From NCBI GenBank assembly GCA_944332995.1, contig CALVKR010000001.1, forward strand, positions 186,001 through 250,000: a stretch of DNA of 64,000 nt. The letters are read 5' to 3'. Under the pieces are notes generated by a model that was given only the letters and a program-made list of their open reading frames with translations, was not told the origin of the DNA and ran no database searches. Numbering within the stretch: the first letter of the stretch is position 1; each line of letters opens with the position of its first letter. The position numbers and the translations under genes are program-made. Source of the stretch: an uncultured Clostridia bacterium (GTDB taxonomy: Bacteria > Bacillota > Clostridia > Christensenellales > CAG-917). This document shows positions 17,942-20,523 of this stretch, piece by piece.

Positions 17942-17958
17942 GCAGCCTTAAAGGCTGC
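17942..17958 (-). terminator. intrinsic terminator overlapping the rimI stop codon
   Basis: GCAGCC/GGCTGC with a TTTAA loop that contains the rimI stop codon, followed on the minus strand by TTTTTTATTT. It ends the ribU-tsaE/tsaB/rimI operon. Confidence 0.85.
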
Positions 17959-18379
17959 GTTTCCACATTATTATAGCACTGTCGCCGTCGGGATAATAGT
18001 TTTTTCTTTCTCCCTCCCCTTTAAAATCGAACGAGCGGTAAAGATTTAAGGCAACGGCGTTTTTGCTTTCCACCTCGAGCGTCACGGCGACGGCTCCCTG
18101 CGCCTTGGCTAAAGCCAAAAGCCGCTCCATTATTATTTTTGAATATCCCTTGCCCCTTTCCTCTTTTTTTACGGCGATATTGTTTAAATTTGCCTCGTCT
18201 GCCGTCATATAAAACGAGCCGTATCCCAAAACGATATCTCCGTCCGTCAAAACGATAAAGTTTTTATCGCCGACGCATTTTTTTATCTGAGCGTAAGACC
18301 AGGGACAGATTATCGAATAAGCCTCGATATCGGCAACGGCGTTTAAATGCTTTTTTGAAAGCGTCTCAGTTTTTAACAT
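17948..18379 (-). CDS. rimI: GNAT N-acetyltransferase, RimI-like
   Basis: This 143-residue protein has the acetyl-CoA signature VKKEERGKGYSKIIMERLL and the RimI marks EVESKNAVALNLYRSFDFKGEGERKNYYPDG. RimI acetylates the N-terminal alanine of ribosomal protein S18; in many Firmicutes the gene sits with tsaB and tsaE as here, so context supports the assignment. It overlaps the end of tsaB by 14 bases and is likely translationally coupled. Other protein substrates are possible. Confidence 0.87.
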   Translation of the reverse strand: MLKTETLSKKHLNAVADIEAYSIICPWSYAQIKKCVGDKNFIVLTDGDIVLGYGSFYMTADEANLNNIAVKKEERGKGYSKIIMERLLALAKAQGAVAVTLEVESKNAVALNLYRSFDFKGEGERKNYYPDGDSAIIMWKRSL

Positions 18380-18926
18380 CCGCCATTCTCTCCGCTTGCG
18401 ATTTTCTGAGATATACCGGCTTTAAGTTTGAAGAAAACTCTTTGTTTTTAAACTTTTTTTCCGTCACGGCAACAAATGCGGCTGTCCTGTCGGCGTTGCC
18501 GTCCTCGAATTTTAACGAGTCGTCGCACCCTTCCAAAAACGAGAGTTTCAAGCTATCCCCCTCTTTTTGGCAAAGATAGCTGTTGTTTGAGCCTGCGTCT
18601 ATTCTGTAAAGACCGTCGGCGCAACCGTAGGTCAGTATCTCGAACGAGTTTACCTCGATTCTTTTTTTGCCCGTGGCGTATGCGAGCGCATTAAAACAGG
18701 CAAGACCTATCCTGATTCCCGTAAAAGAGCCGGGACCTACGCAGGCGGCAAAAACGTCGACGTCGTCCGTCTTGATGCCGGCACTTTTGAGCACGCTGTC
18801 GACAAGCCGCATAATAAGAGGAGAGTGTCCCGTTTTACCCGTGAAACACTCTTTATAAACCTCGTCGTTATGTTTTAAAACTATCAACAGTTCGCTTCCC
18901 GTTGAATCGCACATCAATGCGGTCAT
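18366..18926 (-). CDS. tsaB: tRNA t6A biosynthesis protein TsaB
   Basis: This 186-residue protein shows the TsaB/ASKHA signature AACVGPGSFTGIRIGLACFNALAYA and the opening MCDSTGSELLIVL. TsaB is the non-catalytic partner of TsaD, with TsaE, in adding the threonylcarbamoyl group to A37 of ANN-decoding tRNAs. It follows a gene that carries TsaE, so two of the complex's parts are co-expressed; tsaD and tsaC are not in this window. GGGAGAG lies upstream of the ATG. It is slightly short (usual about 220) with a compact C-terminal half. Confidence 0.9.
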   Translation of the reverse strand: MTALMCDSTGSELLIVLKHNDEVYKECFTGKTGHSPLIMRLVDSVLKSAGIKTDDVDVFAACVGPGSFTGIRIGLACFNALAYATGKKRIEVNSFEILTYGCADGLYRIDAGSNNSYLCQKEGDSLKLSFLEGCDDSLKFEDGNADRTAAFVAVTEKKFKNKEFSSNLKPVYLRKSQAERMADVKN

Positions 18927-18960: not shown

Positions 18961-19050
18961 CCTGTTGCATACTATACTGTCTGCTTTACACCGCTTGCAT
19001 ACTATACTGCCTGTTTTACACCGGTTGCATACTATACTGCCTGTTTTACT
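18961..19050. repeat. 30-bp tandem repeat, three copies, between ribU-tsaE and tsaB
   Basis: Three units of exactly 30 bp (18961-18990, 18991-19020, 19021-19050) share TTGCATACTATACTG and CTG-TTTTAC. The last unit contains the ribU-tsaE stop codon, so the array could have grown out from the gene end. Confidence 0.9.
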
Positions 19051-20336
19051 TTTTTTGCCGAGCCGCCTTTCTCATCGACCGATGCATTGTCCGAGCCGTT
19101 TTTAGTCATACCCGATTTATGCCCGTCCGTATTGTTTTCGGAAGTTTTATCGGCGATGATTTCTGCCGTCAGGGCGCCGTCGGCAGCTTTGTCTCTATCC
19201 GAATTTTCGGGCGACACCAAAAAGGCTTTATCCTCGCTCTTTTTGACCTTGACGTATCTGTTTAAAAAGCTCTCGGGCAGTTTAATTTCAAACTTCCTTT
19301 TATTGCCTGCGCCCGTTATCGTAACGAAGATTGCCTCACGCTCGATATCGTCGAGTTTGTTCCATTCTACGATAGTTATGCCTCCCTCGGAAATAGTTTC
19401 GGCAACACCCGTTTCGTAGAGTTCGTCAAAAGATTCTATCCTATACATATCCAGGTGATTGACGACGTATTTTTTGCCCTGATATTGGTTGAGCACGGTA
19501 AACGTGGGGCTTGTGACGCTCTCTTTGACGCCGAGATTTTTGACGAGATACGAAGTAAACGTCGTTTTGCCTGCGCCGAGGTCGCCTCTTAAAATTATGA
19601 CGTCCTTATCTTTAAGACATCTTGCCATCTGACGTGCGATTCTTGCCGTGCCCTTGAGATTTTTGACGTATAACACCTGTTCGGCTTTCGTTCTGTCAAA
19701 CGAATTGATTGTAGAATCGAATTCCTTTTTAAGTATAACGGATAATTGCTTATATAGCAAGAAAGTGAGCACCGATACTATCAAAAGTCTGAGCGCATTG
19801 AAAGGAAGCACGCCGAGGAAAAGATAGAAAACGTAAAAATTGTCGACGGTAACACCGGGATACAGCGACTGACACATACCGAGGATCGGTCCCCAGCTTC
19901 CGCCGAACATGACCTCGACGTAAAAAGGAACGGCAACGGCATAGTTCATTATCATTGCGGCGACTATCGAAACGAGACTTCCTGCGACAAGCCCTATCAC
20001 GGCGTGTTTTTTGTCCTTTTTGCGCTTGTATATCAAACTTGCCGTCAAAACAAACGATACTCCGACGACTATGTCGACAAGCTCGCCTACACAGCCCGTA
20101 GAGGTCATCGCCATCTTTAAACAGCACTTTATAACGATTATAAGAGTGCCGCTTATCGGACCTAAGGCGAAACCGCCGATAATAGCCGGCAGGTCGGATA
20201 TCTGCATTTCCAGAAACGACGGAAACATGAAAGGCAAGTTAAACTTGCAAAATGCGTAAAGCACGAAGGATATTGCAACAAGTATTGCAATTTTTGTTAA
20301 ATAAGCGGTTGAAATTTTTTTTGAAAAACTGTTCAT
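19032..20336 (-). CDS. fusion of a riboflavin ECF S-component (RibU-like) with TsaE
   Basis: This 434-residue protein starts at the ATG at 20336 (AAGGAAGAG upstream); a longer frame would run into the riboswitch. Residues 1-205 are a RibU-like S component with about six helices and the segments FPSFLEMQISDLPAIIGGFALGP and CLKMAMTSTGCVGELVDIVVG. Residues about 220-360 are TsaE: Walker A RGDLGAGKTTFTSYLVKNLG, then TSPTFTVLNQY, VNHLDMYRI and TIVEWNKL. The tail (360-434) is polar and disordered. No internal start or site separates the halves. TsaE is normally a soluble ATPase of about 150 residues; here it is tethered to the membrane. The gene is controlled by an FMN riboswitch and heads tsaB and rimI. 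Confidence 0.9.
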   Translation of the reverse strand: MNSFSKKISTAYLTKIAILVAISFVLYAFCKFNLPFMFPSFLEMQISDLPAIIGGFALGPISGTLIIVIKCCLKMAMTSTGCVGELVDIVVGVSFVLTASLIYKRKKDKKHAVIGLVAGSLVSIVAAMIMNYAVAVPFYVEVMFGGSWGPILGMCQSLYPGVTVDNFYVFYLFLGVLPFNALRLLIVSVLTFLLYKQLSVILKKEFDSTINSFDRTKAEQVLYVKNLKGTARIARQMARCLKDKDVIILRGDLGAGKTTFTSYLVKNLGVKESVTSPTFTVLNQYQGKKYVVNHLDMYRIESFDELYETGVAETISEGGITIVEWNKLDDIEREAIFVTITGAGNKRKFEIKLPESFLNRYVKVKKSEDKAFLVSPENSDRDKAADGALTAEIIADKTSENNTDGHKSGMTKNGSDNASVDEKGGSAKKVKQAV

Positions 20337-20354
20337 CTCTCTTCCTTTCGGACG

Positions 20355-20376
20355 AAAAAAAAATCCCGCAAGGGGA
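20355..20376 (-). terminator. short GC stem plus T9 run downstream of the FMN aptamer
   Basis: TCCC/GGGA (20376-20364, minus strand) precedes nine Ts (20363-20355), between the aptamer and the ribU-tsaE ribosome-binding site. The stem is short, so transcriptional termination on FMN binding is likely but not certain. Confidence 0.6.
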
Positions 20377-20380
20377 CTAT

Positions 20381-20488
20381 ACTTCTTCCATCCAGACTTT
20401 ACTGTCGGTTTGGGAATTTCACCCAATCGGCCGCATGAGCGGTTCACGGACTATACCGTCGGTGAGGAATTACACCTCGCCCCGAAGT
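20381..20488 (-). ncRNA. FMN riboswitch (RFN element)
   Basis: The minus strand carries the conserved RFN blocks in order: CGGGGCGAGGTGTAATTCC, CACCGACGGTA, AGTCCGTGA, GATTGGGTGAAATTCCC, AACCGACAGT and AGTCTGGATGGAAGAAG. The aptamer begins directly at the predicted transcription start. Such elements switch off riboflavin uptake or synthesis genes when FMN is high, matching the RibU half of the next gene. Here tsaE, tsaB and rimI would share this control. Confidence 0.95.
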
Positions 20489-20494
20489 AACTTA

Positions 20495-20523
20495 AATATA
20501 ACACCGCAAAAAATATATGTCAA
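20495..20523 (-). promoter_or_regulatory. sigma-A promoter of the FMN-riboswitch operon
   Basis: The minus strand reads TTGACA (20523-20518), a 17-bp spacer and TATATT (20500-20495). The start would fall at about 20488, the first base of the aptamer. Confidence 0.85.

Follow-up and report, generated by a model that had tools for sequence, protein, structure and literature searches.

How does a cell come to encode a riboflavin transporter component and a tRNA-modification ATPase in a single reading frame, and from which signals is the ATPase then expressed? The question is raised by a locus in the window, by which we mean the whole stretch of 64,000 nucleotides analyzed here (positions 186,001 to 250,000 of contig C1 of assembly G000, the window's own genome). 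A preliminary description of this DNA had read one frame carrying a RibU-like S component (residues 1–205) and a full TsaE (220–360), behind a canonical RFN element with a consensus promoter and followed by tsaB and rimI. In what follows, G-numbers denote whole genomes, C-numbers (C1, C4, C6, C11, etc.) their contigs, f and g family and genus codes, and L-numbers loci; the genomes compared are mostly drafts.

Organization of the Fused Gene

The minus strand of the window contains an uninterrupted frame from 19032 to 20447, as listed from an upstream GTG. Since this GTG sits within the FMN aptamer, we place the likely start at the ATG of position 20336, which follows AAGGAAGAGAG and gives a product of 434 amino acids. 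The features are as follows:

20495–20523, minus strand: promoter TTGACA-17-TATATT, 11 of 12 consensus positions, with TG ahead of the −10
20376–20493, minus strand: FMN riboswitch aptamer (RFN, RF00050), 110 bits, full length (model positions 1–138)
20362–20378, minus strand: terminator-like hairpin followed by a T-run, between the aptamer and the ATG, putative expression platform
19032–20336, minus strand: fused ribU-tsaE coding sequence, likely 434 codons from the ATG at 20336 to a TAG stop (translation, Pfam)
19725–20336, minus strand: S-component domain of RibU type, residues 1–204 (PF12822, 94.8 bits; RibU chains in the PDB)
19689–19724, minus strand: linker of about 12 residues, with neither an in-frame ATG nor a start preceded by a Shine-Dalgarno sequence
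19275–19688, minus strand: TsaE domain, residues about 217–354 (PF02367, 115.3 bits; TsaE chains in the PDB)
19035–19274, minus strand: polar C-terminal tail of about 80 residues (translation)
18366–18926, minus strand: tsaB, downstream of the fusion (TIGR03725, 90.9 bits)
17948–18379, minus strand: rimI, downstream of the fusion (TIGR01575, 97.2 bits)

The preliminary description is upheld, with domain limits that were right to within a few residues; the tail of about 80 residues after TsaE, which differs in length between relatives, had gone unmentioned. Both Pfam matches fall in one protein (ECF_trnsprt, cut-off 30.7 bits; TsaE, cut-off 26.6 bits), on which the NCBIfam model TIGR00150 also passes its curated cut-off with 101.3 bits. 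The aptamer score compares with a gathering score of 66.2, and the −10 of the promoter stops one base short of the start of the aptamer model; the hairpin and T-run that follow would form the expression platform. The fused gene lies well inside a 290-kb contig, so the fusion is no artifact of a contig edge. A 30-bp tandem repeat (2.8 copies, 94% match) occupies positions 18965–19049 of the window, and the TAG stop of the fused gene lies within it.

Judged by sequence and by model, each half appears to be complete. In the PDB, RibU chains are the only matches to the S half (best 3p5n, E = 5e-23), and solved TsaE proteins rank first for the TsaE half. An AlphaFold2 model of the whole fused protein reached a pLDDT of 82.6 with a pTM of 0.57, which does not establish the domain arrangement; in a Foldseek search with this model, the top 14 matches were TsaE and RibU chains only, and the S-component fold was recovered with TM-scores (by target length) of 0.88 and 0.85 against the RibU chains 5kbw_B and 3p5n_A, respectively. 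The AXXXA motif in helix 1, which serves the docking of S components onto the ECF module (PMC11109136), reads AILVA in the window; among 20 family members its first alanine is invariant and its second is kept in at least 90%, and the Walker A, SPTF switch, HxDxYR, and EW motifs of TsaE form invariant columns in 20 family members.

A Single TsaE in a Genome Probably Dependent on Imported Riboflavin

The G000 assembly is 98.7% complete in 12 contigs, and it is on this basis that we consider tsaE to be present once: the fused copy is the only TsaE above the Pfam cut-off. The sole other match, on contig C6 (E = 8e-4), is weak and partial within a frame of 560 amino acids and was rejected as a second tsaE. 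The earlier suggestion that the bacterium tolerates a chance fusion owing to a second tsaE elsewhere is thus contradicted, both by this single copy and by the family-wide occurrence of the fusion described below. The genome also encodes TsaB, TsaC, and TsaD, the FAD synthetase RibF, and, on contig C4, an ECF module consisting of EcfT and two adjacent EcfA ATPases. Lumazine synthase was found neither in G000 nor in any of the 46 good genomes of the set, and in only 1 of the 60 genomes searched overall; the same search recovered it in all 14 control genomes. The lineage very probably imports riboflavin and cannot make its own.

Distribution of the Fusion

Searching related genomes, as had been proposed, returned a stop-free fusion in 33 of the 38 genomes searched of the window's family, the fused proteins mostly sharing 46–52% protein identity with that of the window. 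Because the frame has stayed open in so many genomes at this degree of divergence, the fusion is not a product of chance, and the alternative envisaged earlier, relatives with separate genes and none fused, does not describe this family. Contig ends cut the locus in G024 in a pattern compatible with a fusion, G002 and G009 carry tsaE unfused, and the search returned no TsaE from G033 (97% complete) or G371. Five further families of the order (f9, f14, f20, f24, and f32) likewise contain stop-free S–TsaE frames. None was found among about 270 sampled genomes of the class outside the order; in six of these, ribU and tsaE lie in line but are interrupted by stop codons. The two genes often adjoin elsewhere yet remain separate, as exemplified by Soehngenia and Terrisporobacter, and tsaB and rimI lie downstream at most loci, whether fused or unfused.

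An FMN riboswitch lies upstream of all 31 family fusions with readable upstream sequence, and at the locus of 12 of the 14 S–TsaE fusions found elsewhere in the order. A second FMN-riboswitch-like element, weaker at about 48–91 bits, is present at another locus in many genomes of the family (for example G003:C79, G007:C9, and G021:C18).

Several long TsaE frames were set aside: those of G110, G323, and G068 have no S component in frame, and that of G079 is masked sequence. A second membrane partner of TsaE was observed in-frame at L122:2077-3447, a PAP2-type phosphatase according to Pfam and unrelated to S components; L181 and L187 (G210 and G269, family f28) encode membrane protein–TsaE fusions that are similar to L122 by eye.

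Apparent Loss of the tsaE Promoter

Where tsaE stands alone in the family (G002 and G009), its start has a compact arrangement of TTGCAA or TTGCAT, 17 bases, TATAAT, and an ATG a few bases on, such that the transcript would be leaderless; it should be noted that all promoter and start assignments are pattern-based. The pattern TTGNNN-17-TAHAAT-(5–9)-ATG has 39 matches on both strands of the 1.56 Mb of loci analyzed; 20 of them coincide with a tsaE start, in many families. The leaderless promoter (TTGCNN-17-TATAAT-ATG) is frequent directly before unfused tsaE across the order (G002, G009, G039, G041, G046, G052, G058, G071, G133, G147, G160, G163, and others), and it was found in none of the 33 fusions of the window's family. 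This indicates that ancestral tsaE in the order was very probably transcribed from a promoter of its own, which the family fusion removed. Because the leaderless promoter is absent from every family fusion, joining the genes apparently put tsaE under the control of the FMN riboswitch.

In one lineage of f32 (G156, G168, G271, G322, and G394) the ancestral TTGCAA-17-TATAAT-ATG is kept inside the fused frame; since promoter and ATG persist there, free TsaE can probably still be made. In the sister genus g4 (G004, G016, G019, G021, G028, G030, G032, G035, and G395) a TTGCCN-17-TATAAT lies in the S codons and a GGAGG-8-TTG at the TsaE start, and these putative promoter and start sites are the top two in the gene for synonymous conservation (z of 3.4 and 2.7, descriptive values only); a different internal TsaE signal seems to have arisen in this genus. 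The window's genus (G000 and G001) has neither the ancestral promoter nor the g4-type signal. An internal start in the linker of the window was considered and rejected: besides the lack of ATG and Shine-Dalgarno sequence, a perfect TTGACA is followed by a poor −10 and no usable start lies beyond it, and a start at the next ATG would cost TsaE its first strand and a portion of its first helix.

Evolutionary History of the Two Halves

In the TsaE tree, the fused sequences of the family group in a single clade with SH-aLRT support of 95; it comprises 34 rows, one of them the contig-cut G024, and excludes G002 and G009. Parsimony on this tree, a quick one of 141 columns, requires nine changes overall between the fused and unfused states, which is a rough count. 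The S-component tree splits into three clades, all of which mix fused and unfused members.

The two halves have not always travelled together. G018 and G023 (L053 and L058) fall within genus g8 by their TsaE, but their S component belongs to a different family. Compared with G025, their riboswitch leader DNA is 92–94% and their DNA from TsaE onward 77–83% identical, against 26% identical residues in the S domain. The transporter half has been replaced in these genomes, as this mosaic of identities indicates, and the frame into TsaE was kept. Between G018 and G023 themselves, the S domains are 99.5% and the TsaE domains 86% identical; the S cassette was probably passed between species, and recently. 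When modeled, this second S type likewise yields a helical domain with a mixed alpha/beta domain behind it.

A Proposed Bifunctional Transporter–ATPase and Its Alternatives

We propose that the gene encodes a bifunctional protein in which RibU works through the shared ECF module, TsaE is tethered on the cytosolic side, and both are controlled by the FMN riboswitch, a reading to which we assign a probability of roughly 70%. In the N-terminal half, a riboflavin S component would import the vitamin by docking on the cell's shared ECF module; the FMN riboswitch and the missing lumazine synthase point to this role indirectly. The C-terminal half would be the cell's only TsaE, held by the short linker at the cytosolic face, from where it would still cycle on and off TsaB–TsaD and drive t6A37 synthesis. 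TsaE binds and then leaves TsaD–TsaB in every cycle (review PMC9654439), movements that a membrane tether would confine and not forbid. Transcription would start at the ribU promoter and be attenuated by the FMN riboswitch, so that RibU and TsaE would rise together at low FMN. The riboswitch would lower expression but should not abolish it, because the organism needs imported riboflavin. The fusion would have arisen from an old neighborhood of FMN riboswitch, ribU, tsaE, tsaB, and rimI, the joining in the family having removed a stop codon, the leaderless promoter of tsaE, and its start codon; with promoter and start codon lost, tsaE would therefore depend on the riboflavin gene. The link between riboflavin status and translation fidelity that had been suggested previously gains a concrete regulatory basis, because the ancestral promoter of tsaE was lost in the fusion, and t6A may follow flavin. 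The main mechanistic puzzle lies in transport: S components are described as toppling during transport, and C-terminal extensions are argued to restrict such motion in related receptors (PMC11109136), such that by analogy a soluble C-terminal domain might hinder the toppling of this one.

The protein could instead be mainly a transporter with a passenger, with functional TsaE supplied separately through an internal promoter or translation start. The f32 lineage, with its promoter and ATG retained within the fused frame, and genus g4, in which synonymous conservation within the gene peaks at the putative internal promoter and start, both point this way, and the g4 signals imply that the fused form need not be the sole TsaE product across the family. 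For the window's species, however, we consider this unlikely: the linkers of the window and of its sister G001 both lack an in-frame ATG and a start preceded by a Shine-Dalgarno sequence, the ancestral promoter is absent from all 33 family fusions, and the truncation from the next ATG would cut into the TsaE fold. That this species makes no free TsaE thus appears the better reading of the internal signals.

It is still less probable that the two domains communicate, with riboflavin binding, toppling, or ECF docking altering the activity or access of TsaE in a transceptor-like tuning of t6A. Riboflavin-type S domains from three clades have repeatedly been joined to TsaE, the S cassette was swapped with the frame into TsaE preserved, and S-fold receptors with C-terminal domains are known (PMC11109136), all of which would suit such a coupling. 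Linkers of 5 to about 90 residues with variable sequence are nevertheless unlike a coupled interface, TsaE is also fused to the unrelated PAP2 membrane protein, and the old gene neighborhood by itself could account for repeated fusion. Its regulatory extension, a flavin-responsive translation switch in which occupancy or docking of the S domain together with the riboswitch sets the reach of TsaE to TsaB–TsaD, seems equally doubtful; if true, the supply of vitamin B2 would directly tune t6A and the decoding of ANN codons. A chance fusion, an assembly error, or a decaying gene with no function would have nothing in its favor other than the odd architecture, and such an origin is refuted by the conservation across 33 of 38 family genomes, with intact motifs and a single gene copy well inside a 290-kb contig.

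Relation to Known Systems

Both halves belong to known families; we found no report in the open-access literature of a joined RibU or riboflavin transporter and TsaE/YjeE. The bifunctional protein proposed here shares with RibU (group II ECF; PDB 3p5n, 5kbw) the S fold, the AXXXA motif of helix 1, the FMN riboswitch, and a shared EcfA–EcfA′–EcfT module elsewhere in the genome. Unlike RibU, it does not stop at helix 6, where S components are described as finishing (PMC11109136): a short linker leads on from there to an entire soluble enzyme. A natural S component with a soluble ATPase of ~140 residues on helix 6 makes the idea of toppling restriction directly testable.

The TsaE half resembles TsaE proteins (YjeE/YdiB, the ATPase of the t6A complex TsaBDE; PDB 1htw, 5mvr, 6n9a, 6s84) in being a complete P-loop ATPase with the family motifs and with tsaB and rimI next downstream. 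The solved proteins are small and soluble, whereas here TsaE forms the C-terminal domain of a predicted membrane transporter and is no longer preceded by a promoter of its own. TsaE–phosphotransferase (APH) fusions in alphaproteobacteria (L114, Microvirga) likewise place TsaE in frame with another protein; in these the partner is C-terminal and soluble, and no transporter is involved. A parallel in architecture is found in the 5TMR-sensor histidine kinases, in which the S-component fold is likewise followed, past helix 6, by a soluble cytosolic domain, but which are receptors with a signaling domain and an extra helix H0 (PMC11109136). In contrast, the C-terminal domain of the fusion is a tRNA-modification ATPase, its helix 1 bears AXXXA, its genome encodes an ECF module, and its model shows no helix before H1 that could correspond to the N-terminal H0.

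The leader matches the FMN riboswitch known before ribU in Firmicutes (PMC4418817) in its canonical aptamer, promoter, and terminator-like hairpin, with the difference that a t6A gene present just once in the genome lies on the same transcript. For its sole TsaE, the cell seems to have exchanged a dedicated promoter for control by a flavin riboswitch, an arrangement that predicts RibU and TsaE rising and falling together with flavin.

Another S component was observed in the same genome: a ThiT-type thiamine S component at L221:1424-2881 (contig C11 of G000), in a frame of 485 amino acids with extra hydrophobic segments before the S component and an acidic tail of ~90 residues after it.
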